A program made the position numbers and the translations under genes. A DNA stretch of 64,000 nt from Actinomycetota bacterium (lineage in GTDB: Bacteria > Actinomycetota > Acidimicrobiia > Acidimicrobiales > Ilumatobacteraceae): NCBI GenBank assembly GCA_009701715.1, contig WLJO01000007.1:1-64000 (forward strand), written 5' to 3'. The notes below the pieces were generated by a model. It ran no database searches, was not told where the DNA came from, and was given only the letters and a program-made list of their open reading frames with translations. This document shows, piece after piece, positions 25,191 through 46,978 of this stretch (position 1 is its first letter; each line of letters begins with the position of its first letter).

Positions 25191-26213
25191 ATGCAGACAA
25201 AAACCGCGCTCCCCGTTCGAGACGACGAACGTCCGTCGCCCACGCCTCGCGAGATCAGCAGTCGACGCGGCCGCGGCGATCGGAACTTCAATCGCGGACT
25301 GTCCCTAACCGGCATCAGTGTGCTCGCTGTCATGGCTGCGGTCGGGCTCTTCCTCACTATTGAGGCGTGGGATGCCTTTCGCGCAGTCGGGTTCAAGTTC
25401 TTCACGACATCAACGTGGCAACCGGACCGGAGGGTGTTCGGCGTTGCCGCAGTGCTCCTCTTCACCGTCCTCATCGCACTCCTTGCAGTAGCGATTGCAC
25501 TCCCCCTCGCTATGGGGACCGCACTGTTCATTGTTGAGGTGGTCCCGAGTTGGCTTCGGTCCACCTTTATTGCAATTGTCGACCTCATGGCCGCAGTGCC
25601 GAGTGTGGTGTACGGGCTCTGGGGGCTCTTCTTCCTGCAGGGACAGATCATCGGGCTGTCACGGTGGCTGACCACCTGGTTCGGTTGGATTCCGCTTTTC
25701 AACGTGTCGGGGGATGACCCCACGAGCCCGCTCGCGAGCGGCACGGTCTACACGGCGTCCACCTTTATCGCAGGTGTTGTGGTGTCCATGATGGTGCTGC
25801 CCATCGCATGCTCGGTCATGCGTGAGGTGTTCTCCCAGGTTCCTCCCGGAGAACGAGAGGGCGCATTCGCGCTGGGATCGACACGTTGGGGAATGATCCG
25901 AACCGTGACCTTGCCCTTCGGTCGAGGGGGAATCATCGGCGGAACCATGTTGGGCCTCGGACGTGCCCTCGGTGAGACGATCGCCGTCTACCTCATCATT
26001 TCGCCACGCTTCGATGTCAGCTTCCACGTTCTCGAGAACGGCAGCAACTCGGTGTCCTCGCTGATTGCGCTGCGAACACCGGAGGCCACCGGATTCGGGC
26101 TTTCCGCGCTGATGGCGGCGGGGTTGACACTGTTCGTCATGACTCTGGTGGTGAACTTCGTTGCTTCGATTTTTGTTGCACGATCCCGCTCGGGTGCCGG
26201 GAGCGAAGCATGA
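25191..26213 (+). CDS. PstC-like phosphate ABC transporter permease (second system)
   Basis: 340 residues with a short cytoplasmic N-terminus and about six membrane helices. The ABC permease EAA loop appears as R-E-G-A-F-A-L-G-S-T-R-W-G-M-I-R-T-V-x-L-P. The motifs A-V-P-S-V-V-Y-G-L-W-G and G-R-A-L-G-E-T-I-A-V are characteristic of PstC. It overlaps the next gene by 4 bp (ATGA). With the PstA- and PstB-like proteins it should form a complete importer. It is clearly a paralogue of the PstC at 42250, not a copy, as the sequences differ greatly outside the motifs. Confidence 0.9.
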   Translation: MQTKTALPVRDDERPSPTPREISSRRGRGDRNFNRGLSLTGISVLAVMAAVGLFLTIEAWDAFRAVGFKFFTTSTWQPDRRVFGVAAVLLFTVLIALLAVAIALPLAMGTALFIVEVVPSWLRSTFIAIVDLMAAVPSVVYGLWGLFFLQGQIIGLSRWLTTWFGWIPLFNVSGDDPTSPLASGTVYTASTFIAGVVVSMMVLPIACSVMREVFSQVPPGEREGAFALGSTRWGMIRTVTLPFGRGGIIGGTMLGLGRALGETIAVYLIISPRFDVSFHVLENGSNSVSSLIALRTPEATGFGLSALMAAGLTLFVMTLVVNFVASIFVARSRSGAGSEA

Positions 26214-27427
26214 CCGACACCTCAAAGCAGATCAACGACGAAGCACGACTGAGGAGCCTGACTTCTACGACGGTTCCTCCACGGTTGGCACAGCCGGCAG
26301 CCCCCCAGGTCCGTCGGTCTATCGGTCGCATCTCGGGTCGGGATGTCGTGGTGCTGTTGGGCTCCGGTCTCACGGCTCTCGCTACGACCGAACTGCTCTT
26401 TGGCCGACTTGCCCCGTTTCGCGGACGACTCGGCTTTGTCGTGGTTGCGTTCGTCCTGTTCGTTGTTGTCTACGCGCTGTTGGTTTCCCTCACTGAGGAC
26501 CGACCGCAGGTCGTGGACCGTGTGATGGGCTCGCTGTTCTCTGCCGCCGCGGTCATCGCCGGCGCGGCACTTGTATCGGTCGTGGGGTTCACGCTGTGGC
26601 GCGGTCGTACGGCGCTGATGAAGTCGAACCTCTACGTCCAGGACATGAGCAACACAGGTCCGCTCGACCCACTCGAGAACGGCGGAATCCTGCACGCAAT
26701 GCTGGGAACCGTCATCATCGTTTCCCTGGCACTCGTGGTGACCGTACCCCTCGGCCTTGCCTGCGCTGTCTTCCTCAACGAGACCCGAAGCCGAATGCGC
26801 GGGCTTGTGCGCAGTGTGGTGACAGCAATGACGGCGCTGCCTTCGATTCTGGCAGGCCTCTTCATCTTCGCCACCTGGGTGCTCATCCTCGGGTTTGAGC
26901 GGTCGGGCTTCGCAGCTTCCCTCGCCATCAGCATCATGATGCTGCCCATCATTGTTCGGTCCGCCGAGGTAGTCCTGCGGCTGGTCCCCGGGAATCTCCG
27001 CGAAGCCTCCGAAGCAACGGGTGCTCCGCAGTGGCGAACCGTTTGGCACGTCGTGCTGCCTACGGCCAGGTCCGGTCTCGTCAACGCTGTGATCCTTGGC
27101 GTTGCGCGCGGTGTGGGTGAGACAGCACCGGTCCTGCTGGTCTCGGGTATTACGTCGACGACGAACTCGAATCCGCGAAGCAACCCGATGATGTCCCTGC
27201 CGCTAGCGGTGTTCGAGTTCGTTCGCTCCCCGCAGCCAGCGCTTATCCAGCGAGGCTTTGCAACTGCGGCGGTACTGATGGTGCTGGTGCTCGCCCTGTT
27301 CACCATTGCGCGTGTGATCGCCGGACGCCCCGTAGGCCGACAATCGAAACGCCAAGCCCGCCGCATGTTGCGCCGTTCGGCGAAGGATCTCGGGCGGATT
27401 GAGATAGTTGTAGGAGGAAGCAGATGA
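26210..27427 (+). CDS. PstA-like phosphate ABC transporter permease (second system)
   Basis: 405 residues, longer than usual PstA (about 300) because of an N-terminal region with extra helices (V-V-L-L-G-S-G-L-T-A-L-A, then L-G-F-V-V-V-A-F-V-L-F-V-V-V-Y-A-L-L). The permease core has L-P-S-I-L-A-G-L-F-I-F, the EAA loop R-E-A-S-E-A-T-G-A-P-Q-W-R-T-V-W-H-V-V-L-P and A-R-G-V-G-E-T-A-P-V-L-L, as in PstA. The ATG is embedded in the PstC stop (ATGA), and its own stop overlaps the next start the same way. The extra N-terminal helices might contact other operon products. Confidence 0.9.
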   Translation: MTDTSKQINDEARLRSLTSTTVPPRLAQPAAPQVRRSIGRISGRDVVVLLGSGLTALATTELLFGRLAPFRGRLGFVVVAFVLFVVVYALLVSLTEDRPQVVDRVMGSLFSAAAVIAGAALVSVVGFTLWRGRTALMKSNLYVQDMSNTGPLDPLENGGILHAMLGTVIIVSLALVVTVPLGLACAVFLNETRSRMRGLVRSVVTAMTALPSILAGLFIFATWVLILGFERSGFAASLAISIMMLPIIVRSAEVVLRLVPGNLREASEATGAPQWRTVWHVVLPTARSGLVNAVILGVARGVGETAPVLLVSGITSTTNSNPRSNPMMSLPLAVFEFVRSPQPALIQRGFATAAVLMVLVLALFTIARVIAGRPVGRQSKRQARRMLRRSAKDLGRIEIVVGGSR

Positions 27428-29106
27428 AGACGTTGCAGCGACGTAGTCGGGCCGGAAACATTGCGCGCGCCGTGGCGCTCGCCGTCGGTCTCGCCTGTGG
27501 CCTGAGTGTGGTTGCGACCTCCGCTTCGGCTGACGGTGGCTACCAGCGAATCTCGGGAGAAGGGTCCTCGTGGGCGGCGAATGCGATCGACGCGGTACGG
27601 GTGAACGTCCGTCAGTTCGGTATCACCATGGATTACAACCCGAGTGGCTCGACATCAGGGCGGAAGAACTTCCTGAACGGAACGGTTGACTTCGCGGCGT
27701 CGGATATCCCGTTCCAATTCGCGCCGGAGGACGGCTCGGCTCCGGAGAACCCAGCTCCGGGGAGTTACGCCTACATCCCTGTCGTCGCCGGCGGAACGTC
27801 CTTTATGTACAACCTGAAGATCAACGGCAAACGCGTGACCAATCTTCGCCTGTCCGGCGAGAACGTCGCAAAGATCTTCACCCGGGTGATCACCAAGTGG
27901 GACGACCCTGCTATCGCCGCCGATAACCCCGGTCTGACGCTTCCTCCGCGCGACATCGTGCCGGTGGTGCGCTCGGACGGTTCGGGATCGAGCGCGCAAT
28001 TCACCAAGTGGATGATTGCCATGCACAAGGCGATCTGGGATGACTATTGCCAGCGATCCGGTCGAGCGCCCGCATGCGGCTACACCTCCTTCTACCCAAC
28101 GGTGAAGGGTGTCGTCGCACAATCAGGGGACTTGGGTATCGCTGGCTACGTGAGCCAGAGTTTCGCCGAGGGAGCGATTGGCTATGTGAACTACTCGTAC
28201 GCGCTCGGCGTCCAGTTCCCGGTGGCGAAGGTCCTGAACAAGGCGGGCTTCTACACCGAGCCGACGCCACAGAACGTTGCCGTGTCCCTACTCAAGGCAA
28301 AGATCAACAAGGACGCGAGCAACCCAGCGGTGTATCTGACGCAGCAGCTCGAGGGTGTGTACACCGACGCCGACCCCCGCAGTTATCAGCTTTCCTCGTA
28401 CTCGTACTTCATTCTGCCGACGAAGGTTGCCGGCCAGTTCAACGAGGCGAAGGGACGCACGCTCGGCGCCGTGGCCTACTACATGATGTGCCAGGCCCAG
28501 CAGCAGTCCGCCTCCCTCGGCTACTCCCCGATGCCGGTCAACCTCGTTCGGGCAAGCCTCGAACAGATCGCAAAGATCCCGGGCGTCGAGGTGCAGTCGG
28601 TCGACATCTCGAAGTGCAACAACCCCACGTTCTCGTCGGATGGGGCCAACCTGCTCGCCAAGAAGGCACCGCAGCCCAAGGTGTGCGACAAGAAGGGTTC
28701 GCTGCAATGCCCGAACGGAACGGGTGGTTTGAAGAACGTGCCGACTGCGGTGAAGTCTGGCGCCAGCGGTGGCGGTTCCCCGAGCGGGGGAACGAGCTCG
28801 GGTGGCGACACGACAGTCGATGGAGCGACGGGACCGGGGGGAATTACCGATACCGGCGCTGATCCGGCGACTGGTGACACCGTTCCCAGTGGGGTTGACG
28901 GTCAAGGCGATGGGGGCACCCCGGAAGGCGGTAGCGCAGTGGACGGTTCGGCCGGTGCGGTGCCGGTCGGCGACGTCGTTACCACCACGCTGAAGCGTGA
29001 GTCCGCGGGGCTCGGAATCGGCTTGCTCGTGGGCCTCATGATTCTCGCAATGATCTTCGTACCTGGCTTCGCATGGCGACGCCTTGGCCGGCGGGGAGCC
29101 CAGTGA
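27424..29106 (+). CDS. Membrane-anchored PstS-like phosphate-binding protein (second system)
   Basis: 560 residues: a signal peptide ending near A-S-A, a PstS-type periplasmic-binding domain of about 360 residues, a Gly/Ser/Asp-rich linker and a C-terminal membrane helix (G-L-G-I-G-L-L-V-G-L-M-I-L-A-M-I-F-V) with an R-R-L-G-R-R stop-transfer end. PstS signatures include G-E-G-S-S-W-A, S-G-S-T-S-G-R-K-N-F, F-A-A-S-D-I-P-F, the L-S-G-E-N-V-A-K-I-F element and R-S-D-G-S-G-S-S-A. Phosphate is the likely ligand. C-terminal anchoring by a helix is unusual because classical PstS proteins are lipoproteins. ATGA overlap upstream and GTGA overlap downstream show tight coupling. Confidence 0.88.
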   Translation: MKTLQRRSRAGNIARAVALAVGLACGLSVVATSASADGGYQRISGEGSSWAANAIDAVRVNVRQFGITMDYNPSGSTSGRKNFLNGTVDFAASDIPFQFAPEDGSAPENPAPGSYAYIPVVAGGTSFMYNLKINGKRVTNLRLSGENVAKIFTRVITKWDDPAIAADNPGLTLPPRDIVPVVRSDGSGSSAQFTKWMIAMHKAIWDDYCQRSGRAPACGYTSFYPTVKGVVAQSGDLGIAGYVSQSFAEGAIGYVNYSYALGVQFPVAKVLNKAGFYTEPTPQNVAVSLLKAKINKDASNPAVYLTQQLEGVYTDADPRSYQLSSYSYFILPTKVAGQFNEAKGRTLGAVAYYMMCQAQQQSASLGYSPMPVNLVRASLEQIAKIPGVEVQSVDISKCNNPTFSSDGANLLAKKAPQPKVCDKKGSLQCPNGTGGLKNVPTAVKSGASGGGSPSGGTSSGGDTTVDGATGPGGITDTGADPATGDTVPSGVDGQGDGGTPEGGSAVDGSAGAVPVGDVVTTTLKRESAGLGIGLLVGLMILAMIFVPGFAWRRLGRRGAQ

Positions 29107-31745
29107 AACGACGAGGTGTTCTTGGCGCTGCTGCCCTTGCCGTATCGGCAGGCCTGACACTTGCGGCGACCGCAGGTGGTATTACGGCTTCCTTCGCAAC
29201 GGGCTCACCGGTGCCGGGGAGCCAGGGAACAGACACCGCGCTGCCCAATACTGCGTCGCGTGTCACCGTGAGCGGACGCGGGAGGTTCTCCAGCCTTCGG
29301 ATCTCGGTCAACCAGACGGAGAAGTTGGCAAACCAGGCTGTCTCCATCACCTGGACGGGTGGCGAACCAACGGTTCAAGGTCCCGGTCGTTTTGCGGCCA
29401 ATTTCATGCAGATCTTCCAGTGCTGGGGCGATGACGATGCTGCTATTCCGGACAACCCGGGACCACCGCCCGAACAGTGCGTGCAGGGCGCGGTGGGCGG
29501 CAACTACAACGGTCCGCCGGCCGGCGTGTATCCCAATGTGCTGGCTACGTCTCGCGTGATCTTCCGTTCCGATTGGGCTGGGTACGACCCTACAGTCGGC
29601 TTTACCGACTCCCGGACAACGAACGTGTGGAGGCCGTTTCGGTCGGTCACCGGCGACGTGGTGAACGTCCACGCGAACCCGAACTTCAATCCAGCCATCG
29701 TGGGTGGCAACTACTGGTTGAATTCGTATTTCAACGAGATCACTACCAACGAAATCGCTGGGGCGACCACGGATGCCCAGGGTAACGGTGCAGACCTGTT
29801 CCAGCTGAACACCGGTAACCAGTCCACAGGGCTCGGCTGCGGTCAGCGAGTGCAGCCTGTCGAAGGTGGCGGCAAGAAAGTTCCTCAGTGCTGGATCGTC
29901 GTCGTGCCTCGTGGAACTGCAGCAGAGGAGAACGCTGGCACGCCGTTTGGGGGGGCCCGTCCTGAACAGTTTGGTGTCGCCACCTCACCGCTCTCGCCAC
30001 TCGTTTGGGCCAATCGAATTGCGATCCCGCTCAGCTTCAACCCGGTGGACTCGCCTTGTGACATCCGCAAGCAGGACCGTCGCATTGCGGGTAGCGAAGT
30101 AGCGCTCACGGCGATCGGAAGTTGGCAGCCTGCGCTCTGCACAGGCGGTGGGCTACCTCCTTTTTCCTACGCAACGATCGGGGATGACGCTGCGCGTGGT
30201 CAGCTTGCAAACCCGGTTGAGGGTTCGCCGGGCCTCGTCGTGGTGTCGCGACCGCTCGCCTCGGGAACCTACGACACGACGAAGCCCATTGTGTACGCGC
30301 CGTTGACAGCATCCGGCCTCGTAGTTGGCTTCAACGTTGAGCGGGTCCCAAAAGTAGACGCCCCTCAGGAGGAACAAGAACTGGCAGGCGTGCGAGTTGC
30401 AACCATGAAGCTCACGCCCCGTTTGATCGCGAAGTTGTTGACGCAGTCGTACGTACGAAGTGTGGCGATCAACGGTGAGATCCCCAGCTTCTCTTGGTTG
30501 GCGGATAACGCACTCCACCTTGGAACTGACCCTGATTTCCTTCAGTTCAACCCCGAGTTCGCGCTCCTTCAGAACTCGAGCCCGCGAAACTTCAGCGGTA
30601 TGCAACTCCCTTCAGGTCCATCGGACGCTGCGAAACAGTTGTGGAACTACGTGCTCGACGATCCAGAGGCCAAGTCGTGGCTTTCGGGCGTGCCGGATCC
30701 GTGGGGAATGAAGGTGAACCCGGTGTACGCCGCCGATGTTGTGCTCAACCCGTCGGGAGTGGCGTTTGGGGAACCCGTGCCTAACTCATTCCCGAAGAGC
30801 GATCCGTACTGTTATCAGGCCCCTTCGCTCGGCTCGGTCGTCCCCGCCCCGCTCTGCGGAACGGAGTGGCTTCCGTATACCGGTGGGCTCATGAACGGTG
30901 CACAGATCACTCGTGCAGCCGCCGATGGTGCCCGGGTGGAGTTCAATATCTACGCAGCGACTCCGGCAGATGCCTGGAAACGAGAGGGACCCCAACTGGC
31001 CGGTTACCGCTCGATGCTGACGCTTACGGATACTCCCTCCGCATTCCAGTACGGATTGCAGACGGCATGGCTCAGCAGGCCCGGTGACAATGGTGAGTCC
31101 CGCCGGTTCATCGCGCCGACAAACGATGCACTGGTCGCTGGTGTGGCTGCGATGGCACCCGGCGAGGAACCCACGTTCCTCGAGCCGAAACTCAGCACGC
31201 CGGCGCCCGACGCCTATCCGCTGACGACCTTGACCTACGCGGCGATTTCCCCTCTGGCCATTTCCACCGCAGCCCGTGCCGACTACGCGGCGTTTCTTAA
31301 GTACGCAGCCGAGCAAGGCCAACAGGCAGGCTTGGCCCTCGGCGATCTACCGCCGGGCTACGTTCCACTCTCGGAGACCCTCAAGGCTCAGGCAACCGAA
31401 GCGGCCGCGAAGGTGCTGTCGATGCGCGCACCGCCCGGCGGCGGTGGCGGAGGGTTCTTCACCACGACAATCCCCGAAACGCTGGATTCGACCGTCCCCG
31501 ACACCTCGATACCGACATCAAGCACGGCCGCGGCGATTGGTACCTCGGTGCCGGAGACCTCGCTGGCCTTGGGCGGAGCCGAGCGGCCGCTCACACCGGG
31601 AACCTCGCTGGGTTCGAGTCGCCTCACGGCTCTGGTGTTGTTGGCGCTACTCGTCGGATCGGGGCTCGCCGCTGCACTGACATCAAGGGAGACGTTGATA
31701 CCTGCAGTCCGCCGTCGACTCCCTAGCAGATGGGTAGAGCAATGA
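29103..31745 (+). CDS. 880-residue exported protein with C-terminal anchor, distantly PstS-like
   Basis: A signal peptide (V-L-G-A-A-A-L-A-V-S-A-G-L-T-L-A-A) is followed by about 800 extracellular residues and a C-terminal helix (L-T-A-L-V-L-L-A-L-L-V-G-S-G-L-A-A-A-L) with a basic tail. Early residues resemble a beta-rich domain (S-I-T-W-T-G-G-E-P-T-V). In the middle, V-Y-A-P-L-T-A-S-G-L-V-V-G-F-N then M-K-L-T-P-R-L-I-A-K-L-L-T-Q recalls the PstS segment V-A-G-G-T-S-F-M-Y-N-L then L-R-L-S-G-E-N-V-A-K-I-F of its neighbour, so I infer a divergent binding-protein fold with insertions. A Thr/Pro/Ser linker precedes the anchor. The GTG at 29103 overlaps the previous stop (GTGA). Function unknown. 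Confidence 0.8.
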   Translation: MKRRGVLGAAALAVSAGLTLAATAGGITASFATGSPVPGSQGTDTALPNTASRVTVSGRGRFSSLRISVNQTEKLANQAVSITWTGGEPTVQGPGRFAANFMQIFQCWGDDDAAIPDNPGPPPEQCVQGAVGGNYNGPPAGVYPNVLATSRVIFRSDWAGYDPTVGFTDSRTTNVWRPFRSVTGDVVNVHANPNFNPAIVGGNYWLNSYFNEITTNEIAGATTDAQGNGADLFQLNTGNQSTGLGCGQRVQPVEGGGKKVPQCWIVVVPRGTAAEENAGTPFGGARPEQFGVATSPLSPLVWANRIAIPLSFNPVDSPCDIRKQDRRIAGSEVALTAIGSWQPALCTGGGLPPFSYATIGDDAARGQLANPVEGSPGLVVVSRPLASGTYDTTKPIVYAPLTASGLVVGFNVERVPKVDAPQEEQELAGVRVATMKLTPRLIAKLLTQSYVRSVAINGEIPSFSWLADNALHLGTDPDFLQFNPEFALLQNSSPRNFSGMQLPSGPSDAAKQLWNYVLDDPEAKSWLSGVPDPWGMKVNPVYAADVVLNPSGVAFGEPVPNSFPKSDPYCYQAPSLGSVVPAPLCGTEWLPYTGGLMNGAQITRAAADGARVEFNIYAATPADAWKREGPQLAGYRSMLTLTDTPSAFQYGLQTAWLSRPGDNGESRRFIAPTNDALVAGVAAMAPGEEPTFLEPKLSTPAPDAYPLTTLTYAAISPLAISTAARADYAAFLKYAAEQGQQAGLALGDLPPGYVPLSETLKAQATEAAAKVLSMRAPPGGGGGGFFTTTIPETLDSTVPDTSIPTSSTAAAIGTSVPETSLALGGAERPLTPGTSLGSSRLTALVLLALLVGSGLAAALTSRETLIPAVRRRLPSRWVEQ

Positions 31746-32482
31746 TCGTCAGGCTCCATACCGTTCGTCACCTCCTCGCGCTATTTGCAGTGGTGGTTGG
31801 TCTCCTTCTCCAGGGGCAACTCTCTGCTGGCACAGCAGTAGCGGCGGCTCGCAGATCGGGCGATGCCGAGGCGGTGCAGGCGAAGAACCGACTGCGTCCG
31901 TTCATCGAGGGCACGCACGAGTCAGCGTTCTCACTCCGGCTTCCCCGCGGCGCAACGTGTCCCGGGGACAGCATGAATGACGACTGGCGTGTGCAGAGTT
32001 TTGTCGTGCCGAGCACGGATGATCCCGGATCGTTGCGCTACATGGTGACCGGCCCGGAAGGCCCAGAGAACGACGCCCGCGTTGCGCTCTATACCTCCGA
32101 GGGCCGGCCGTACATGAACCAACTTCTCGGAGCAAACTCCGAGCCAGGCCAACCGGCACAGATCATCGAACTGCCATCGTTTAGCTTCAAACGCCTGCCG
32201 ATCAATTATCTGCCGAGCGGCGAGTACCGCATGGGGGTTGCGTGTACGGACGGTAAGGGCGTCACAGCCCAGTATTGGGACACGCTGATCTCTATTGAGT
32301 CGTCACCAACCACCATGCAGTGGAGGACCCTCCAGAAGGCAGAGAACCTCGACAAACGGTCCAACACCCTCTGGATTGTGCTCGCAGTGGTCTGCGTTCT
32401 GGTGCTGATCGTTTCTGTGGCAACATTCGTGCGGGCGTCGCGAGCACAGCGTGCAACGATCGAGAAAGATGTCCCAAGATGA
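31742..32482 (+). CDS. Membrane-anchored protein with the C-x-G-D/G-V-A-C domain (divergent copy)
   Basis: 246 residues: signal peptide (about 1-36), extracellular domain, C-terminal membrane helix (210-230) and basic tail. Domain landmarks: C-P-G-D at 73-76, V-Q-S-F at 84-87, D-P-G-S-L at 94-98, G-E-Y-R-M-G-V-A-C-T at 160-169 and Y-W-D-T-L-I-S-I at 178-185. These align in order with the proteins at 22728, 32479 and 36809, although the middle segment differs. The two conserved Cys residues could form a disulfide. The ATG at 31742 overlaps the preceding stop (ATGA), and its stop overlaps the next start likewise. Confidence 0.8.
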   Translation: MIVRLHTVRHLLALFAVVVGLLLQGQLSAGTAVAAARRSGDAEAVQAKNRLRPFIEGTHESAFSLRLPRGATCPGDSMNDDWRVQSFVVPSTDDPGSLRYMVTGPEGPENDARVALYTSEGRPYMNQLLGANSEPGQPAQIIELPSFSFKRLPINYLPSGEYRMGVACTDGKGVTAQYWDTLISIESSPTTMQWRTLQKAENLDKRSNTLWIVLAVVCVLVLIVSVATFVRASRAQRATIEKDVPR

Positions 32483-33393
32483 AGCCGCCGAAGTGGATCG
32501 GCTCCATCGCTGTCTTGGGCGTTGCACTGCTGATGTCGTTCGCTGGACTGCTGATCGTCGGTGTCGGTTCGGCACGGGCTGACACGGCGCCGGTTCTCCT
32601 GATTACACCTGAGCCCTCGCAGCGGGACGACGTGCTGTCGATGACGTTCGCTTCGCGGCAACGTTGTCAGGGCGACAGCGAGGCCGGGTACCTCTGGCAG
32701 ACCTTCCTCACGCCGATCGAGAATGATCCCGCGTCCTTGACGTACTCGCTCGGACTCCCGAAGGGCAGAGGCTTCACGAGCGGGCTGCGAGACACCACGC
32801 AGAGCTGGGTCCGCAACCGCAATCCGGGACTGACCGACGGACAGGTGATCCCTCCCGACGATCTGACGTTCTCGGGCAAGGCGTTCAATGCCATACCGGC
32901 AGGGGAGTACTGGATCGGTGTTGCCTGCACGAAGCAGGACGCCGAGGGAGTTACCCACACGACCCGATTCTGGGCTCGGCAGGTGGCCATCTCGTCACCA
33001 GCTAATCGAAGCGTCTTCATGTCGCTGCTTGATCAGCCGGCAGACACGTCCTCGGAAGGCGATAGCGCAGCAGTAGCAGGAAGCGAAACGGTCCAGTCCG
33101 TTGTGAGCACCGTGCAGCCGCCAACAACCCTCGCTGCCACAGCGAATGTGTTGGATGCAGAGCCAACCACTACGACCACCGCTGGTGTCCTCGCGCAGAC
33201 ACTCCCGGCTTCCAGCAACGAGCGGATCATCGGGGCAGGATCGTTGAGCGGCGGCGGCGCCTCGCCCGTTGCGAGCAAGGGACACAACCTGTTAACACCA
33301 CTTGGTGTCGCGCTTGGGGTGGCACTGGTGCTCGTCGTAGTGGTCGTATTCATCGCGCGCAGACGGCGAGTAAATCGGATGGTGCCGTCGTGA
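32479..33393 (+). CDS. Membrane-anchored protein with the C-x-G-D/G-V-A-C domain
   Basis: 304 residues. A signal peptide (about 1-35) precedes the domain: C-Q-G-D at 63-66, W-Q-T-F at 73-76, D-P-A-S-L at 83-87, N-P-G-L-T-D-G-Q at 115-122, G-E-Y-W-I-G-V-A-C at 142-150. A Thr/Ser/Ala-rich spacer (about 180-265) follows, then a membrane helix at 272-291 and R-R-R-R. This copy is closer to the one in the secreted FN3 protein at 22728 than is the neighbour at 31742. The spacer could lift the domain across the wall. Coupled by ATGA upstream and GTGA downstream overlaps. Confidence 0.82.
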   Translation: MKPPKWIGSIAVLGVALLMSFAGLLIVGVGSARADTAPVLLITPEPSQRDDVLSMTFASRQRCQGDSEAGYLWQTFLTPIENDPASLTYSLGLPKGRGFTSGLRDTTQSWVRNRNPGLTDGQVIPPDDLTFSGKAFNAIPAGEYWIGVACTKQDAEGVTHTTRFWARQVAISSPANRSVFMSLLDQPADTSSEGDSAAVAGSETVQSVVSTVQPPTTLAATANVLDAEPTTTTTAGVLAQTLPASSNERIIGAGSLSGGGASPVASKGHNLLTPLGVALGVALVLVVVVVFIARRRRVNRMVPS

Positions 33394-34340
33394 AGTCCTC
33401 ACTGATACTCACCGATGATGAGGAATCCATGGTTGTTGATCAAATCGAGGCGGAGACCAGCGGCTGGTCCGGTGTGCCATCGATCCGACTGTCGAGCGAA
33501 CGCGTTGCTCTCGTCCGCGGTGCTGTCCTGATGCTCTTTGTCCTGATGGTGTCGGCCGTCCTTCAACTCTTCGTGGCGAGCCGTATCCAGCACAGCGCGT
33601 CGCAACAGAGACTCCACGACCGCTTCCGCAGTGCATTAGCCACGGGCACCGCCCCGGTCGGTTCGCTGGACGGCGAGGGTCAACTCGTGAGCGCAGGTAC
33701 ACCCGTTGCGTACCTTCAGATTCCCGCGCTGGGTGTGGAGGAAGTTGTTGTTGAGGGGACGTCGGCTTCCAACCTCTATGCAGGCCCGGGACATCGCCGT
33801 GACACACCGCTTCCAGGGCAGGTCGGTCGCAGTGTGATCGTTGGTCGTCGAATGCTGTTCGGCGGGCCGTTTTCCTCGCTGAACCAGATCAAGCTAAGAA
33901 ACGAGATCCTCGCAACCACAGCACAAGGTGTCTTCCGGTTCGTCGTAATCGGCATTCGGCGAGCGGGGGATCCGCTCCCCGAGGTGCCACGCGGGCGTGC
34001 GTCCCGACTTGTGCTGGCGACCGCCGGCGGTAGTGGACTCAACCCGAGCGGGGTGCTGTGGGTGGACGCTGATCTACAGGGCGAAGCGGTAGGGGGACCG
34101 ACGAGAGTGCTGACGTCGGCAACACTGCCGGGCGAGGAACAGGCCGGATCGAGCGACTCCCGAACACTGTGGGCGCTCGTACTCTGGCTCCAGTTACTGT
34201 TGATATCCGTCATCGGCGCCCTGTGGTCATGGCACAGGTGGGGGCACGCGCTGACCTGGATCGTCGGTACACCAGTCCTGTTGCTCGTGAGCAATCTGGT
34301 GTGGGACGAATTCTTTCGATTGCTCCCCAACGTTGTCTGA
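33390..34340 (+). CDS. Sortase-fold membrane protein lacking the catalytic His, Cys and Arg
   Basis: 316 residues: an N-terminal helix (42-63), a class E/D-like sortase domain (about 103-230) and two C-terminal helices (about 260-280 and 289-305). Sortase landmarks are P-V-A-Y-L-Q-I-P-A-L-G at 105-115, V-V-V-E-G-T at 119-124, G-P-G-H at 132-135 and L-P-G-Q-x-G at 141-146. Where active enzymes have G-H-R-T the protein has V-G-R-R-M (Arg153), where they have T-L-T-T-C it has L-V-L-A-T-A (Ala212), and the catalytic Arg is absent too. It should therefore be inactive as a transpeptidase. It overlaps the gene before it by 4 bp. A structural or peptide-binding role in the surface assembly is inferred. 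Confidence 0.78.
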   Translation: MKSSLILTDDEESMVVDQIEAETSGWSGVPSIRLSSERVALVRGAVLMLFVLMVSAVLQLFVASRIQHSASQQRLHDRFRSALATGTAPVGSLDGEGQLVSAGTPVAYLQIPALGVEEVVVEGTSASNLYAGPGHRRDTPLPGQVGRSVIVGRRMLFGGPFSSLNQIKLRNEILATTAQGVFRFVVIGIRRAGDPLPEVPRGRASRLVLATAGGSGLNPSGVLWVDADLQGEAVGGPTRVLTSATLPGEEQAGSSDSRTLWALVLWLQLLLISVIGALWSWHRWGHALTWIVGTPVLLLVSNLVWDEFFRLLPNVV

Positions 34341-34361: not shown

Positions 34362-35237
34362 ATGATCACCGTACGAAACGAAAAGTCGGGTAACGAGGAT
34401 GCTCCGCGTAGCCGCGGACGCCGTTCGGACCACGGCACTGCCCAAGTCACCACCGCAAAGCCGTTGATCGGTATCGAGGCCCGGGAGATCTCCGCGTGGT
34501 TCTCGAGCCGGCAGGTCCTTGACCGTGTGTCGCTCGACATGGAGGCGGGTCAGGTGACCGCGCTCATTGGTCCGTCGGGCTGTGGCAAGTCAACGTTTCT
34601 GCGCATCCTGAACCGGATGCACGAGATGATTCCTTCGGCATCGCTCGCCGGGGAGGTGTTGCTCGACGGCGAGGATATTTACGACGCAACCCGTCGGCTA
34701 ACCGATGCAAGACGGCAGATTGGAATGGTGTTCCAGAAGCCAAACCCGTTCCCAGCGATGTCGATCTACGACAACGTTGTCGCGAGCCTTCGGCTAACTG
34801 GGCTGAAAGTACCGACCTCGGTCAGGGACGAGATCGTCGAGCAATGCCTCTCCAAGGCAGGGCTGTGGAGGGAAGTGCGCGACCGTCTGCGCCAGCCCGG
34901 CGGTGGACTTTCTGGAGGCCAGCAGCAGCGACTCTGCATCGCTCGAGCTCTCGCGATCCGGCCGCGAGTGCTGCTGATGGACGAACCCTGTTCGGCGCTC
35001 GATCCGACGTCGACGTTCCGTATTGAGGAAACCATCTCCGAGCTCAAGTCCGAGGTCACCATCGTGATTGTGACGCACAACATGCAGCAAGCGGCTCGCG
35101 TGTCTGACCAATGTGCGTTCTTTCTTGCGCAGGATGGGGCGCCCGGTCACATCGTTGAATACGGGCCGACGTCGGCAATGTTCGGGTCACCACAGGACAG
35201 CCGCACCGCTGCGTACGTCACTGGTCAATTTGGCTGA
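34362..35237 (+). CDS. PstB-like phosphate ABC transporter ATPase (second system)
   Basis: 291 residues. The ABC motifs are complete: Walker A G-P-S-G-C-G-K-S-T, Q-loop V-F-Q-K-P-N-P-F-P, signature [13 protein letters not shown], Walker [14 protein letters not shown] and the switch His in V-T-H-N-M-Q-Q-A. The phrase [10 protein letters not shown] and the [10 protein letters not shown] Walker B are diagnostic for PstB. The N-terminal 40 residues are charged and not part of the fold. It lies 21 nt after the sortase-like gene and closes the operon that starts at 24918. It is a paralogue of the PstB at 44126. Confidence 0.93.
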   Translation: MITVRNEKSGNEDAPRSRGRRSDHGTAQVTTAKPLIGIEAREISAWFSSRQVLDRVSLDMEAGQVTALIGPSGCGKSTFLRILNRMHEMIPSASLAGEVLLDGEDIYDATRRLTDARRQIGMVFQKPNPFPAMSIYDNVVASLRLTGLKVPTSVRDEIVEQCLSKAGLWREVRDRLRQPGGGLSGGQQQRLCIARALAIRPRVLLMDEPCSALDPTSTFRIEETISELKSEVTIVIVTHNMQQAARVSDQCAFFLAQDGAPGHIVEYGPTSAMFGSPQDSRTAAYVTGQFG

Positions 35238-35314: not shown

Positions 35315-35408
35315 TCTGAGACAGTGCAAAGCGTTGGGTCGCGATTGACCTGGCCGACCGGGAACGACCCGGGCGCAACTCGCATGTCGAAAGGGAACGT
35401 TGACCACC

Positions 35409-36749
35409 ATGTCGTCACAGACCACAAAGAAAATCATCAGCCTCGTGGCTGGTGCTGCAGCGCTCGCCGGCCTGGCCGGTGCAGGGATCGCCGGTACGCA
35501 CACGGCAAACGCCGAGCCCCAGCAGTACAAGGCGCCGTTGTTCGGATTCGGCTCCGACACGACCCAGGACGTCGTTAACGCCCTTGGTGGGTTTGCGAAT
35601 GGAAAGACCTACACCCCCCTCGTGACCTCTGAGGCGACCGGCTACAAGCAGCTTGTCAACTTCGATGCCACGATCCCCGGTGAGGCGGATGCCACCAAAC
35701 GCGAGTGCATCGCCACCAAGCTCGGCTCGCCGCTCATCCTGCGCCCGAACGGCTCGGGTGAGGGTCAGAAGGTCCTCAGTCGTCAGGCCGGCGGCGTGTG
35801 GTACACCGGACTCACCGTGACCGCAGCCATCACTGCAGCGAGCTGCAACAGCAGCCGCAACATCGCGGGACTCGTCGACTTTGCACGCTCCTCCTCAAGC
35901 GTTTCGAACGCCGTTGGCACCGATATCACGGCTCTTCCGTTCGGCGTGGATGCGCTCACCTTCGCCTACAGCAAGCCGAAGACCTCGTCGGATTCCGTCT
36001 GCGGAACAGGAGCGGAGGCGTGCCACGACGCCGTCGACACACTCACGAAGGCGGAGCTGACCACCCTGTACACCAACGGCGTGCTCGTGAAGAACAACAC
36101 GGTGATCGTCCCCTGCGGAATCCAGACCTCCTCCGGTACCTACAAGACGTGGTACGGCAAGACGGGTAACACCTCGTCGCAGGAAGGAATCGGCACGGCC
36201 TTCTGCAATGGCATCGGCAACGGCTCCCGCCTCCAGGAGAACCACGGCCCGGAACTCAAGGCCAAGGCAGACGCCCTGCTCACCACAACGAACGCGATCT
36301 GCGATGGCGTTGCAGGCGACCCTGCAGTGTCATGCAAGGACGTGCAGGTGGTTGTCGGCTTCGCCGCAAGTGCTTGGGTCTCCAAGTCGAACGGGCTCTC
36401 CTCGCCTGCTCCGGGTACCGGTGTGTCCCTCGGCCTGGCCGGTGGCAAGACCTTCGTGACCTACACCGCCGGTAACGCTGTTGGCAGCAAGTGGTCGCCG
36501 AACACCGACGGATTCAACGACACGAACTGGAACCGCAACGTCTACAACATGGTGCTCAGCGCCAACCTCGACAACTCGACCGGCGACGCCGCCATTATCG
36601 AGATGTTCAAGGGCTCGACCTCGCTGATGTGTGGCAGCGCTGCACAGGCCATCGTGAACTCATTCGGCTTCCTCAGCCTCGGCAACGACGCGAGCACGGG
36701 CTGCGGAAACAGCACCACTAAGGGCGGCCTCGTCGCCAACAACGGCTGA
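35409..36749 (+). CDS. Secreted PstS-like substrate-binding protein, soluble type
   Basis: About 446 residues. A signal peptide (ending near A-N-A) is followed by a binding-protein domain starting G-F-G-S-D-T-T-Q-D-V. PstS-type elements are R-P-N-G-S-G-E-G, V-D-F-A-R-S-S-S, P-F-G-V-D-A-L-T-F-A and T-K-A-E-L-T-T-L-Y. Several Cys are present, probably as disulfides. There is no lipobox or C-terminal helix, so unlike the two other PstS proteins here it should be released or wall-trapped. The ATG at 35409 is chosen; a TTG at 35400 is too close to the AAAGGGA ribosome site. It probably shares a transcript with the gene at 36809, which has the same kind of leader. Confidence 0.82.
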   Translation: MSSQTTKKIISLVAGAAALAGLAGAGIAGTHTANAEPQQYKAPLFGFGSDTTQDVVNALGGFANGKTYTPLVTSEATGYKQLVNFDATIPGEADATKRECIATKLGSPLILRPNGSGEGQKVLSRQAGGVWYTGLTVTAAITAASCNSSRNIAGLVDFARSSSSVSNAVGTDITALPFGVDALTFAYSKPKTSSDSVCGTGAEACHDAVDTLTKAELTTLYTNGVLVKNNTVIVPCGIQTSSGTYKTWYGKTGNTSSQEGIGTAFCNGIGNGSRLQENHGPELKAKADALLTTTNAICDGVAGDPAVSCKDVQVVVGFAASAWVSKSNGLSSPAPGTGVSLGLAGGKTFVTYTAGNAVGSKWSPNTDGFNDTNWNRNVYNMVLSANLDNSTGDAAIIEMFKGSTSLMCGSAAQAIVNSFGFLSLGNDASTGCGNSTTKGGLVANNG

Positions 36750-36808: not shown

Positions 36809-38641
36809 TTGAAACGCAACGGAAAGCGCCTCGCGGCGACCCTGGCGGGGCTCTCAGCCCTCGCCGGCGGGCTGGTTGTGGTGGCAAACGCCACCACTGC
36901 CAGCGCCGCACAGACTGATCCATCCTCCGCAACCGGAACCGTCGATGTCACGCCCTCGAGCGGCAAGAGCGACGACAACTTCGCTCTCGGCTTCTCGAGT
37001 GGGCAGGTTTGCCCGGGTGATGCATCGAGCAACTACTCGGTCCAGACCTTCATCACGCCTCGCTCCGAGGATCCGGCGACAATGGTGTTCAACTTTGCCG
37101 CACCGACTGGTGCGAGCTTCACGGCGTACCTGCGCTACGCGAACGGTACGCAGGTCAAGAACATCAACCCGGGCCTCAGCACGGCAGATGTGCCCACCAG
37201 CCAACTCACGGGACTGTCGTTCAAGAACGCAGCGTTCTCGTCGGTGTCGGCGGGCCAGTACTGGATCGGTGTGGCCTGTGCCCTCAACGACGCCACGACC
37301 ACCGAGAATGTCAAGTACTGGAAGACGCCGCTCACGATCACTGCGGACAACAGCACGGGCGGCGTGAACAACTTCACCTACAAGGTGGGCTTCGTGCCCA
37401 ACGCCCCGACGCTCGGCGCACGGACTGCCGGGGACGGACAGGTGTCGGTTGCGTTCACCGCTGGCACGACGATCGACGGGAACCCGTCGACCACCGGCTA
37501 TACGGTCAAGGTGTACGACTCCACCTGCACGACAGAGGACAGCGCCAAAAACGTTACCGGTGCCTCGTCGCCCCTCGTCGTGACAGGTCTCACCAACGGC
37601 ACGACGTACTGCTTCAAGGCACTTGCCACGAACAGCGTCGGTAACAGCACGCTGTCCAGCACGGGTACCTCGACGCCGAACCCCGCTCAGCGTGGAGCGG
37701 TGACCAACCTGCAGGGAACCCCCGGAACGGAGCAGGTCGCCCTGACGTGGACTGCACCGAGCCCGGCCCCGACGACGTACACCATCACGGTTAGCCCGAA
37801 CACCGGAACTTCCGCCTTTGTCGCCGGTCCGTACACGGGTGTGAGCGGTACGTCGAGGACGATCACCGGCCTGACCGGTGGCGTGCTTTACACGTTCACC
37901 ATCACACCATCGGCGTACTCCGACAGCCCGACGGGTGGCGGTAGCTTCGCCGGTACAGCCGCACAGGTTCAGGCAACACCGAACTCCAACCAGGTCATCG
38001 GTCAGGACAACAGTGTCACTCGCCCGGCGGGTGCCCTGCTCATCTACGTGAAGTGCGGCGTGTACGGCGCTCTGGACTCGTTCACCGCAACGAGCGGTTT
38101 GTTCCCCGGATTCCCGAAGACCCTCACGTCGGCAACGGCAACGGGCTCGGGAACCGAGGCAGGCGGCGGCAGCGCGGCGTGTACCTTGGACATGGGCACG
38201 GCAGAACTTGTGCGCCTCGCTGATGACGCCAGCCTCGGCGGTAACTTCTTTACCGCCAACGGACGGCTCAGCCAGGTGACCGTGCTCGACACCCGCGACT
38301 CCGACCTCGGTTGGAGCGTCACCGCCACAGCCGGAAACCTCACGGGTTCGGTCAGCGGTTCGTTCAGTGGCAACTATCTCGGCTGGATCCCGAAGGTCAC
38401 CGCAACGTCCGCGGCATACGGCACGTACGATCAGGTTGCCACCGCAGGCGCAACCGTTCTCCCCGGTACCGGTGTATCGAGCGGTGACGGTCTCGGCGAT
38501 GCCACCCCGAACGTCCTCGCATCGGCTGCGGCCGGAGCAGGACTCGGCGAGGCGAAGATTGACGGACGACTGCTCATGCTCATCCCGGTCACGGCAGATG
38601 CTCAGGTCTACACGGGCAGCGTGACGCTGTCGCTCATCTGA
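36809..38641 (+). CDS. Secreted protein: C-x-G-D/G-V-A-C domain, two FN3 domains and a WxL-like C-terminus
   Basis: 610 residues, TTG start with AAAGGGA 6 nt upstream. After a signal peptide (1-34), residues 41-180 hold the shared domain: C-P-G-D 68-71, V-Q-T-F 78-81, D-P-A 88-90, G-Q-Y-W-I-G-V-A-C 149-157. Two FN3 domains follow (about 195-390). The C-terminal part (about 486-610) looks like a WxL wall-binding domain: V-T-V-L-D-T-R at 490-496, G-W-S-V-T-A at 501-506 and Y-T-G-S-V-T-L-S-L-I at the very end. WxL domains bind peptidoglycan non-covalently. The first two domains are clearly paralogous to those of the protein at 22728. The next gene encodes a WxL-interacting-type protein, supporting this reading. 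Confidence 0.78.
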   Translation: MKRNGKRLAATLAGLSALAGGLVVVANATTASAAQTDPSSATGTVDVTPSSGKSDDNFALGFSSGQVCPGDASSNYSVQTFITPRSEDPATMVFNFAAPTGASFTAYLRYANGTQVKNINPGLSTADVPTSQLTGLSFKNAAFSSVSAGQYWIGVACALNDATTTENVKYWKTPLTITADNSTGGVNNFTYKVGFVPNAPTLGARTAGDGQVSVAFTAGTTIDGNPSTTGYTVKVYDSTCTTEDSAKNVTGASSPLVVTGLTNGTTYCFKALATNSVGNSTLSSTGTSTPNPAQRGAVTNLQGTPGTEQVALTWTAPSPAPTTYTITVSPNTGTSAFVAGPYTGVSGTSRTITGLTGGVLYTFTITPSAYSDSPTGGGSFAGTAAQVQATPNSNQVIGQDNSVTRPAGALLIYVKCGVYGALDSFTATSGLFPGFPKTLTSATATGSGTEAGGGSAACTLDMGTAELVRLADDASLGGNFFTANGRLSQVTVLDTRDSDLGWSVTATAGNLTGSVSGSFSGNYLGWIPKVTATSAAYGTYDQVATAGATVLPGTGVSSGDGLGDATPNVLASAAAGAGLGEAKIDGRLLMLIPVTADAQVYTGSVTLSLI

Positions 38642-38673
38642 GCAAGACACACCTTCCAACTTCACTTCGGTTC

Positions 38674-38706
38674 GGCGGTATGGGGCGGCAGTCGCCCCAT
38701 ACCGCC
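38674..38706 (+). terminator. 14-bp perfect hairpin after the WxL-like gene
   Basis: GGCGGTATGGGGCG (38674-38687) pairs with CGCCCCATACCGCC (38693-38706) around a 5-nt loop. No U tract follows. It could partially terminate or protect the upstream transcript, allowing the secreted proteins at 35409 and 36809 to be made in excess over the membrane proteins that follow. Confidence 0.55.
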
Positions 38707-38730
38707 ACTGGCATTTACGGACGACACACC

Positions 38731-39864
38731 ATGCACGCACGATCCTTCACCGCTCCGCTCTCCCGGCTCACACTTGCAGCGCTCCTGGGCACCCTCGTTG
38801 CTTCCCTCAGCGCTGGGCCCGCCGTTGCCGCCGATCCGCCGGCAACGTCTTCGCCGACCGCTAGTTCACCGACTACCTCCTTGGCGCTGCCGAATGGTGC
38901 GCCGCTCAAGCCCGGCGACGAGGTCATCCAGAGCTGGACTATCGTTCCCGGCGGGGACGGCCAACGCGCCTACTTCTCCTACGACTCCGATGGCGGAGTA
39001 ACCGTCAAGGACTCCGTCAGCGTGCAGAACTACGGAAATGTGCCGCTGAATCTCCGCGTCTATGCCACCGACGGCCTCAACAATCCGGACGGCAGTTTTG
39101 CGTTGCTCTCGGGCGATGCGAAGCCAACTGACGTCGGCTCGTGGATCGCACTCGCACAAGAGAACGTCACCATCCCGGCGGGCAAGCAGTTGCTGATTCC
39201 CTACACCATCACCGTTCCGGCTGGCGCAAACCCCGGCGACCACGTGGGGGGCATCGTCGCATCAAACGAGACGCCCACCAAGCCCGGCAAGACGAACACG
39301 TTGTTGGTCTTCCGCCGGACCGGAGTCCGTCTCTATCTTCGAGTTCGCGGTCAGCTTCGGTCGAACCTTTCCACCGAGGCATTCCGGGTGTCCTACGATG
39401 GGGGCCTGAACCCCGCGGGCGGGAAGGTTCGGGTGCGCTTCCGCATCGCCAACCTCGGCAACGTCCGCCAAGCGGGCACGTACCGCCTTACGGTCAAGGG
39501 CGCATTCGGTACAGGCAAGCACGATCTCGGTGAGAGAGCGTTCCCAGAACTCCTGCCTGGCCAAAGTATTGAACTCGCCGAGGATGTGCGAGGTGTCCCC
39601 GCACTTTTTGTGGCCAAGGCGTCGGTTACCGTCACGCCGGCCGCAGGTGGGGACGAGGCAGCCTCTCAGCCAACACGTCGATCCGCCCAAACGTTTGCGC
39701 CTCCCCTTCTCCTCTTGCTTGTCCTTGTGGTGCTGCTGGCGTTGCTCGTTGTCTGGCGCATTGTGCGCCGATACCGGGATCCCGATGATTCCGATGGGAA
39801 CGAGATCGACGGGAACCCCGGCGGCGATTCAGGCTCTGACGAGCAGGAGCCCGTGCTCGTATGA
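38731..39864 (+). CDS. DUF916/WxL-interacting-type membrane protein
   Basis: 377 residues: signal peptide (1-34), an extracellular beta domain (about 75-180), a second beta domain (about 190-305), a membrane helix (323-345) and an acidic cytoplasmic tail. The first domain has the pattern of WxL-protein peptidoglycan-binding domains: V-S-V-Q-N-Y-G-N-V-P-L-N-L-R-V-Y at 96-111, D-G-x-F-A-L-L, V-T-I-P-A-G at 146-151 and V-P-A-G-A-N-P-G-D-H-V-G-G-I at 162-175. Such proteins partner with WxL proteins in Firmicutes, and a WxL-like protein is encoded just upstream. A longer reading from 38680 would start inside the hairpin and is rejected. ATGA overlap with the next gene. Confidence 0.83.
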   Translation: MHARSFTAPLSRLTLAALLGTLVASLSAGPAVAADPPATSSPTASSPTTSLALPNGAPLKPGDEVIQSWTIVPGGDGQRAYFSYDSDGGVTVKDSVSVQNYGNVPLNLRVYATDGLNNPDGSFALLSGDAKPTDVGSWIALAQENVTIPAGKQLLIPYTITVPAGANPGDHVGGIVASNETPTKPGKTNTLLVFRRTGVRLYLRVRGQLRSNLSTEAFRVSYDGGLNPAGGKVRVRFRIANLGNVRQAGTYRLTVKGAFGTGKHDLGERAFPELLPGQSIELAEDVRGVPALFVAKASVTVTPAAGGDEAASQPTRRSAQTFAPPLLLLLVLVVLLALLVVWRIVRRYRDPDDSDGNEIDGNPGGDSGSDEQEPVLV

Positions 39865-40883
39865 ATTGTCTCTCGGCTTCGATCCCTCGATTGCTCCGCC
39901 GTGTCATCGTGGTAGGTGCCTCGCTAGTGGTGTCCGCACTCGTGAACGCAATCGTGATGGCACCTGCGCATGCTGCTGATGCACCGACGACCACGGCTGC
40001 GACGGACTCAACGCCATCGACGACAGCGAGAGTTACGCCGGGGAAGCCCACGTCGAATGGCGGCGGTCCATCGGTCAGCCTCGTCGTCAAGGAGATTGCT
40101 GTCGGATCAACGGTTTCGATCAGGCTCAGCGACTTCACCGCGAAAGTCCTGACCGTCACCGTGTGCGGGAACGAAGGCCGGCGCGGTTCGGTCGACTGCA
40201 ACGTTCCTGACGCGAAGACCGTTGAGGTCCCGAGCGACAGCAAGGTCTTTCTCGCCGACTTCATCGTCACGAAGCCTCCCGCACCGTGCCCCTGCATCAT
40301 TCAGGCGGCCAGTGACCGGTTCGACGAGGTTGCGGTGGCTGCGTTCACGTTGCTTGGACACCCGATTGCGCCGGTAGTTGACAGCGGCAAGGGGATCATC
40401 CCGCTTCAGGTCTCCATCGTTGCCGAACCGGCCGACGACGGCCTGTGGGCGAGGGCACGCACGAGCCTTGCGGGTGCAACGTGGTACGACGTGACGGTCA
40501 TCCTGCAGAACACTTCTGCGTCTGTGCTGCAGGGCGCCGCGATCGCCGTTGAGGTTGGTCGGAACACCGAAGACTCGATCAGGGACGTGGCGTTTCCTAA
40601 GATTGACGACATCGGACCACGGGGCACCTGGCGTGAGACCGTTCGGCTCAGGCTGTCGTCCCCGGTCTACGGCACGTACGTGTGGCGAGCGACTACAACA
40701 GCATTCGGGCTGTCCACTACGGCGACCACGACAACCAAGAATCAACCGACGTTGTTCGTGGTACTCGCTGGAATCTTCGGTCTCGCCGTGCTGACGCTCG
40801 TCGTTCGACTGACGTTCCATCTGGTGCGTCGACTCTTGCGCCGGCGCAAGCGGCCGGCCATCGTTTCCCCACCGTTAACCTGA
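39861..40883 (+). CDS. Exported, membrane-anchored protein of unknown function, Cys-paired beta domain
   Basis: 340 residues: a signal peptide ending near A-H-A-A-D, a Thr/Pro-rich spacer, a beta-rich domain with V-T-V-C-G-N-E at its heart and D-C-N plus C-P-C-I-I-Q-A, a second beta domain (W-Y-D-V-T-V-I-L-Q-N-T-S), and a C-terminal helix (L-F-V-V-L-A-G-I-F-G-L-A-V-L-T-L-V-V) with a very basic tail. The spacing of the four Cys recalls neocarzinostatin-like immunoglobulin domains, but this is a weak resemblance. The ATG overlaps the preceding stop (ATGA), tying it to the DUF916-type protein. Probably part of the same surface complex. Confidence 0.72.
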   Translation: MNCLSASIPRLLRRVIVVGASLVVSALVNAIVMAPAHAADAPTTTAATDSTPSTTARVTPGKPTSNGGGPSVSLVVKEIAVGSTVSIRLSDFTAKVLTVTVCGNEGRRGSVDCNVPDAKTVEVPSDSKVFLADFIVTKPPAPCPCIIQAASDRFDEVAVAAFTLLGHPIAPVVDSGKGIIPLQVSIVAEPADDGLWARARTSLAGATWYDVTVILQNTSASVLQGAAIAVEVGRNTEDSIRDVAFPKIDDIGPRGTWRETVRLRLSSPVYGTYVWRATTTAFGLSTTATTTTKNQPTLFVVLAGIFGLAVLTLVVRLTFHLVRRLLRRRKRPAIVSPPLT

Positions 40884-41046: not shown

Positions 41047-42138
41047 GTGAATATTTCCAAGCGTGTTTCCTTCATCGGCGCAGCCGTAGCGCTCGCCCTC
41101 ACCGCCGCAGCGTGCGGCGACAAGAAGGAGTCCACCGAGACGACAGCCGCACCCGAGACCACGGCGGCCACCGAGACAACGGCGGCGACCGAGACGACCA
41201 CTGCCGGTGGGCTGGACCTCTCGGGTGTCAAGGGCAACGTGTTCGTTACGGGTTCTTCCACTGTCGAGCCGATCTCCATCAAGGTTGGCGAGCTTGCCAA
41301 GACCCTGAGCGGCGGCGGCCTTGCCGTCACCGTGGAGGGCCCCGGCACCGGCGACGGCTTCAAGACGTTCTGCGCCGGTGGTGCCGACATCTCCGACGCC
41401 AGTCGCAAGATCAAGGACACCGAGGCCGAGGCGTGCAAGACCGGTGGGGTGGAGTACATCGAACTGGCAATCGCTATCGACGGCCTGACAGTTGCCACGA
41501 GCCCGAAGAACACGACCGTTGATTGCCTGGATACCAAGGCGCTCTACGCGCTGCTCGGGCCGGAGTCCGAGGGCACCGTGAGCAAGTGGAGCGATGCGAA
41601 CGCATTGGCCACTGAGCTCGGCTCGAAGTACAACAACCTCCCGGATGCTGATCTCGTGGTGAGCGGCCCCGGCGAGGAGTCGGGCACCTACGACACCTTC
41701 GTCGAGTTCGCGATCAAGTCGATCGCCGCCGAGCGCAAGATCGAGAAGGCGGCTGTCCGTGCCGACTACTCGTCGAGCGCGAACGACAACCTGATTGTCG
41801 AGGGCATCGAGGGTTCGGATGACTCCCTCGGCTGGGTTGGGTATGCGTTCTACGTGGCCGAGGCAGCGCGGATGAAGGCGATTGCTATCGCGAACAAGGA
41901 AGGCGCCTGCGTCCTCCCGTCACCCGAGACCATCGCCGACGGCTCGTACCCGTTTAGCCGGACGCTGTACATCTACGTGAACAAGGCCAAGGCCGCAGCA
42001 AACCCGGCAGTGGTCGCTTACGTGAGCCTGTATCTGAGCGAGCAGGGCCTTGCTGAGGTCCCTGCTGCTGGCTACGTGCCGCTCGGTGCGGACAAGATCC
42101 AGGCCAGCGTCGCCGCTTGGACTGCCGCAAAAGCCTGA
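41047..42138 (+). CDS. pstS: Phosphate-binding lipoprotein PstS
   Basis: 363 residues. A lipoprotein signal ends in L-T-A-A-A-C, so Cys20-22 region is the acylated residue, followed by a Thr/Glu/Ala-rich tether (E-T-T-A-A repeats). The binding domain has V-T-G-S-S-T-V-E-P-I-S, G-T-G-D-G-F-K-T-F, G-A-D-I-S-D-A-S-R and G-P-G-E-E-S-G-T-Y, like SphX/PstS phosphate receptors. It captures phosphate outside the membrane and passes it to PstCA. GTG start with an AGGAG site. A strong hairpin after the gene probably limits read-through into pstC. Confidence 0.95.
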   Translation: MNISKRVSFIGAAVALALTAAACGDKKESTETTAAPETTAATETTAATETTTAGGLDLSGVKGNVFVTGSSTVEPISIKVGELAKTLSGGGLAVTVEGPGTGDGFKTFCAGGADISDASRKIKDTEAEACKTGGVEYIELAIAIDGLTVATSPKNTTVDCLDTKALYALLGPESEGTVSKWSDANALATELGSKYNNLPDADLVVSGPGEESGTYDTFVEFAIKSIAAERKIEKAAVRADYSSSANDNLIVEGIEGSDDSLGWVGYAFYVAEAARMKAIAIANKEGACVLPSPETIADGSYPFSRTLYIYVNKAKAAANPAVVAYVSLYLSEQGLAEVPAAGYVPLGADKIQASVAAWTAAKA

Positions 42139-42164
42139 CCAACAACAACGGAGTGATGCGAGGA

Positions 42165-42196
42165 GGGTTGGGCACCACGAAGGTGGTGCCCAACCC
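42165..42196 (+). terminator. Partial terminator between pstS and pstC
   Basis: GGGTTGGGCACCAC (42165-42178) and GTGGTGCCCAACCC (42183-42196) form a 14-bp perfect stem with a GAAG loop, then CCCTCGTTTG. It sits inside the pst operon and is a typical device for making more binding protein than permease. Confidence 0.75.
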
Positions 42197-42249
42197 CCTC
42201 GTTTGTAGCAAGATCAATACCGAAGCCGGATCGAGAGGGAGGGCAGGCA

Positions 42250-43179: not shown

Positions 43180-43193
43180 GTGAGCGCCCGAAC

Positions 43194-45777: not shown

Positions 45778-45786
45778 GGACCGCTA

Positions 45787-46968: not shown

Positions 46969-46978
46969 GGAGCTGTCG

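Follow-up and report, generated by a model that had tools for sequence, protein, structure and literature searches.

The gene at positions 33390–34340 (forward strand) of the window, by which we mean the whole stretch of 64,000 nucleotides of the actinobacterial contig analysed here, encodes a protein that is a member of the sortase superfamily by fold and homology and that, judging from its residues, is near certainly without catalysis. It belongs to an evidently old family of pseudosortases whose genes accompany those of the Pst phosphate importer. We lean, if only slightly, towards the view that the Pst-linked pseudosortase serves as a membrane scaffold or receptor that docks the tails of surface proteins uncut within a csc/WxL-like complex, so that it would probably hold these proteins in place rather than cut them.

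The open reading frame starts with GTG and specifies 316 amino acids, comprising an N-terminal transmembrane (TM) helix, a sortase domain at approximately residues 100–232 and two C-terminal TM helices. Residues 109–190 match PF04203 well above the cut-off (E=2.2e-11, 44 bits against 26.6), and the best NCBIfam model, class_E_sortase NF033747, scores 56.6 bits, far under its cut-off of 160. The AlphaFold2 model, based on six sequences, has moderate quality overall (mean pLDDT 68), with pLDDT of about 70–92 over most of the sortase domain. All 50 listed matches of this model in a Foldseek comparison with the PDB are sortases (E 1e-8 to 1e-6), including SrtE of S. avermitilis (5go5, TMt 0.66); the fold is therefore that of a sortase, as the earlier note had supposed from the sequence framework. 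No PHROG match indicating a phage origin was obtained.

Sortase catalysis requires Cys, His and Arg. In S. coelicolor SrtE1 the catalytic residues are His251, Cys320 and Arg329 (numbering and roles after PMC5148588), and alignment with active class E sortases places R153, A212 and V222 of the window protein at these positions, R153 falling in the column of the GHR motif and A212 in that of TLxTC. The replacement of all three residues, claimed by the earlier note, holds and recurs by column count in a comparison of 26 active sortases with 52 relatives of the window protein (the latter included). The His column contains H in 26/26 active sortases, and R in 51 and K in one of the 52 pseudosortases. 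Cys is likewise universal among the active sortases (26/26) and absent from the pseudosortases (0/52), which instead have A, S, G, V, M or T. The Arg column, R in 26/26 active sortases, contains it in 0/24 members of the core clade and in 22/28 of the remaining pseudosortases. The triad of the active sortases is thus missing from the window protein and its relatives, and no orthologue keeping it at the locus was found among them. Since the His column is R or K and the Cys column never C in all 52, the loss is a family trait rather than decay, and the substitutions are due neither to chance nor to sequencing error.

Drift at the Cys site contrasts with the fixation of Arg at the His site, a pattern suggesting that this Arg was selected; to judge by the distribution of residues, the old Arg seems to have disappeared from the core clade after His had given way to Arg. 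A further substitution escaped the earlier note. Tyr229 of SrtE1, the Y of the GHY motif in the beta3/beta4 loop, is the proposed substrate-recognition residue of class E, and the window protein has R136 at this site, so the groove need not accommodate an LAxTG/LPxTG peptide in the customary manner. His and Cys are intact in all five further sortase genes identified in the window's genome. Odd triads also occur in sortase-like genes from other lineages (L109 has F for H and T for C, L113 has N for H and S for C, and L114 has D for H with C kept), which possibly represent independent inactivations.

Relatives were sought in overlapping samples of 201 genomes from the window's family, 296 from its class and 396 from its phylum, and by a profile search of contigs. 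The 52 distinct relatives, nearly all full-length, come from several actinobacterial families and classes and include metagenome-assembled genomes labelled Microbacterium and Nocardioides; because the search profile was made from pseudosortases, the active sortases amount to a sample rather than a full count. A maximum-likelihood tree was inferred without the His and Cys columns, after eight long or duplicate rows had been dropped; in it one branch (ultrafast bootstrap 100, SH-aLRT 91) parts 51 pseudosortases from 24 active class E sortases. A quicker tree with more rows gives the same split with a single long-branch intruder, L113, whose own His and Cys are replaced as noted above. Compared with its closest relative, the window gene has a dN/dS of 0.142/0.619, or about 0.23, and is under purifying selection.

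The C-terminal helices tell a different story from the one first proposed. The earlier note regarded them as an addition, but active class E sortases carry the same pair with an end in ...RLLP, including two in the window's own genome that end in ...NVNRLLP; active enzymes of this kind occur in that genome and in no fewer than three relatives. The helix pair is thus ancestral, and its interpretation as a novelty of the pseudosortase is ruled out. Also rejected was a pairing between a Glu of the last pseudosortase helix and a conserved Arg in the TM segment of the upstream protein H, since G334 breaks it.

The pseudosortase gene lies in a cluster encoded on the forward strand. It opens with the permease genes pstC (25191–26213; TIGR02138 over cut-off) and pstA (26210–27427; TIGR00974 over cut-off), followed by E, a PstS with a C-terminal TM anchor (27424–29106; over cut-off for PBP_like_2, 172.7 bits against 205 for TIGR00975), and F, a large membrane-anchored PstS-like protein of the PBP superfamily (29073–31745). 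Next come the secreted, TM-anchored proteins G (31730–32482), which by eye resembles H and the N-terminal domains of A and L, and H (32479–33393). The start of H overlaps G in ATGA and its stop overlaps the pseudosortase start in the GTGA at 33390, so that the three frames are joined by overlapping stop and start codons. Downstream are the ATPase gene pstB (34362–35237; TIGR00972, 341.4 bits, just under the cut-off of 343.2), which makes the PstSCAB importer complete, and genes for K, a secreted protein without a TM tail whose distant profile match L117 has a PBP_like_2 domain (35400–36749), the secreted FN3 protein L (36809–38641), the WxLIP/DUF916-like protein M with a C-terminal TM helix (38680–39864), and N, a TM-anchored protein of unassigned family conserved in the cluster (39861–40883).

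Several features of the surroundings deserve mention in their own right. A (22728–24743), G and H (31730–33393) and L (36809–38641) have a similar extracellular domain, C..GD...GY.WQTF...GLP...AG.Y.IG.AC, for which no Pfam match was obtained, and a neocarzinostatin-like (Ig-type) domain opens the surface protein encoded ahead of the pseudosortase in L041 (639–2987) and L118 (7395–9221). Upstream of the cluster there is a gene for a polyphosphate kinase (20540–22585). Downstream there is a second, more ordinary PstSCAB with PhoU (41047–45777), followed by a PhoR-like histidine kinase and a response regulator (together 41047–47677), and the whole region looks Pho-related.

Gene order in the cluster is near-identical across the window's family. 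The constant core in distant lineages is the pseudosortase, usually with an anchored F-like PstS-like protein, and PstSCAB, the Pst genes often being divergent. Pst permease or ATPase genes were found nearby in 38/41 pseudosortase loci examined, and the three loci in which none were seen (G112, G213, G312) sit near contig ends. None of eight control regions around active sortases contained PstC, PstA, PstS or F, distant ABC ATPases being the only such genes there. Three genomes with gene F and no full-length pseudosortase match were inspected for an orthologue that keeps the triad; their contigs (L150, L151, L152) break off inside gene H/L or shortly beyond it, just short of where the pseudosortase would be expected, and the Thr-rich low-complexity stretch of H may be what breaks these assemblies. 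Genome G123 has two distinct Pst-pseudosortase clusters, which belong to different subfamilies (L047 and L153).

WxL proteins are known mostly from Firmicutes. Here, M matches DUF916/WxLIP in the window (28.4 bits) and in an orthologue (35.9 bits) over the cut-off of 27.3, and PF13731 (WxL) is matched below its cut-off by two orthologues of L (E=2e-4 and 1.2e-3); the window's own L has no WxL match in the Pfam profile search. The DUF916-like M and the weak WxL matches in L orthologues give the locus the look of a csc-type surface complex coupled to a Pst importer, and 36809–39864 possibly encodes an actinobacterial WxL-like complex. The csc/WxL clusters of Firmicutes (CscA–D) consist of DUF916, WxL and LPxTG proteins (PMC1534035, PMC9772566). 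The locus has in common with them the WxLIP/DUF916 TM protein M, the weakly WxL-like L orthologues and LPxTG-like H orthologues; it differs in having a pseudosortase and Pst genes, and its WxL match is below cut-off with no small/large WxL pair shown.

The absence of sorting signals from neighbouring proteins, as the earlier note had it, is true of the window and fails elsewhere. Outside the window's genus, H orthologues from all 16 readable genomes end in a [LVI][PASV]xTG motif, a TM segment in which a GR motif is conserved, and a basic tail. The motifs are LPGTG (twice), LPMTG, LPTTG, LPSTG (twice), LASTG, LSATG, LATTG, LANTG (twice), LVVTG (twice), VPVTG, IPVTG and IPRTG. This signal is of class E type, and thus a dead class E-type sortase adjoins a protein with a class E-type signal. 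H without the motif was found only in the window and in the sister genome G023; by these comparisons the window's genus is the exception, having evidently lost the H signal while keeping the pseudosortase. Signals are absent from the other TM-anchored proteins of the locus (E 0/52, M 0/15 and N 0/12 ORF entries, near-duplicate loci counted), and LP[GD]SG occurs in the upstream F protein of one other group, L030–L033. In several lineages (for example, L034–L036 and L093) the protein upstream of the pseudosortase has no recognisable signal. A PF00746 search located canonical LPxTG proteins elsewhere in the window's genome.

How might such a protein work? The docking model favoured here envisages a sortase domain derived from class E and accompanied by three membrane helices, unable to cut or join peptides, whose former substrate groove, with its near-invariant Arg at the old His position, would together with the helices grip the tail of the surface protein encoded upstream. 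The gripped tail would consist of a linker or sorting-like motif plus the TM segment and would belong to the anchored PstS-like F in most lineages and to the LPxTG-like H in the window's family. The assembly of PstS-like, FN3/WxL-like and WxLIP-like proteins would thereby stay tethered to PstCAB instead of being transferred to peptidoglycan. In modelling of SrtE1, Arg329 touches the carbonyl of the signal's P3 residue; speculatively, this contact could have passed to the Arg that replaced His, which would explain how Arg329 could later go. The tail signals of the H orthologues, the overlapping frames of G, H and the pseudosortase and the anchored PstS-like neighbour of distant lineages speak for this model. 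The window's own H, which lacks the motif while the pseudosortase is still kept, counts against it, as do the replaced recognition Tyr and the lineages whose upstream protein shows no signal. The earlier note had proposed a pseudosortase recruited as a binding or structural subunit of a phosphate-linked complex. That it is a non-catalytic component of such a complex has good support from the family-wide loss of the triad, the near-universal Pst linkage, purifying selection and the fold, and non-cleaving binding of tails is the function that we infer.

Other readings account for part of the same evidence. Dead paralogues of other enzymes act as partners or competitors, and the pseudosortase could similarly accompany an active class E sortase without catalysing anything itself, collecting H (or F) and handing it over, or competing with the enzyme. 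The active enzymes with matching C-terminal helices in the window's genome and in three or more relatives, and the plausible sorting signals of H orthologues, are what one would look for in this case; however, in the loci read the pseudosortase adjoins Pst genes and never an active sortase, and it persists in the window's genus where the H signal is gone, which leaves this explanation unlikely. We consider it quite doubtful that the Arg-rich old active site is instead an anion pocket, binding phosphate, polyphosphate, teichoic acid or another cell-wall phosphate and feeding or sensing for Pst. The adjoining phosphate importer fits this idea, as do the arginines of the core clade, found at the Tyr position in 19/24 members and at the next position in 23/24, with the His-position Arg in 51/52 across the family; yet in the pseudosortases beyond the core clade Leu or Val mostly occupies the Tyr position, the His-position Arg being the sole constant one, and no precedent for anion binding by sortases was found.

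The surroundings of the pocket are kept in the pseudosortases (H135, Q144, Q179, S148, R153), as might be expected had the site been rebuilt for a different chemistry to give a new enzyme. Two of these residues, H135 and Q144, are however conserved in active sortases as well, and there is no conserved nucleophile, given the drift of the Cys column, making a new activity very improbable. Annotation by PF04203 alone would say sortase, and one could imagine that the gene is a relic in decay or that an error of assembly or reading frame disguises an ordinary sortase; this deserves almost no credence in view of the same substitutions in 52 relatives, the open frames and the conserved gene order, and relic or decay is ruled out by the dN/dS, the relatives and the synteny.

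Compared with class E sortases (SrtE), the pseudosortase has the same fold, N-terminal TM helix and GxGH...LPGQ motifs, and the C-terminal helix pair of the active actinobacterial enzymes; it differs in that His, Cys, Arg and the recognition Tyr are all replaced and in its separate branch tied to Pst genes. Like high-affinity PstSCAB phosphate importers, the locus brings together PstC, PstA, PstB and PstS, but its PstS is anchored by a C-terminal TM helix and is accompanied by other surface proteins, PstS-like and adhesin-like. A full-text literature search, with subscription papers and preprints outside its scope, found no published pseudosortase family or family of inactive sortase homologues, and under this partial coverage no Pst-linked sortase family either.

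Sortases are usually regarded as enzymes, and domain-based annotation would label these proteins as such. A deep, conserved dead family tied to phosphate import would clearly exemplify the conversion of a sortase into a binding or scaffold protein, and it offers a natural design for a non-cleaving binder of sorting signals. We put forward only tentatively the fuller scenario, in which an ancient actinobacterial pseudosortase family arose by a single His-to-Arg change as a non-cleaving tail receptor, the new Arg holding the tail and taking over from the Arg329 later lost in the core clade, and serves an undescribed PstS/WxL-like phosphate-capture machine with a dedicated Pst importer. The data point to an undescribed actinobacterial surface system, and there is a minority chance that the pseudosortase is the key part of one that captures phosphate. 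The function of csc/WxL-type clusters would also become testable, because the neighbours here suggest a likely cargo, phosphate.
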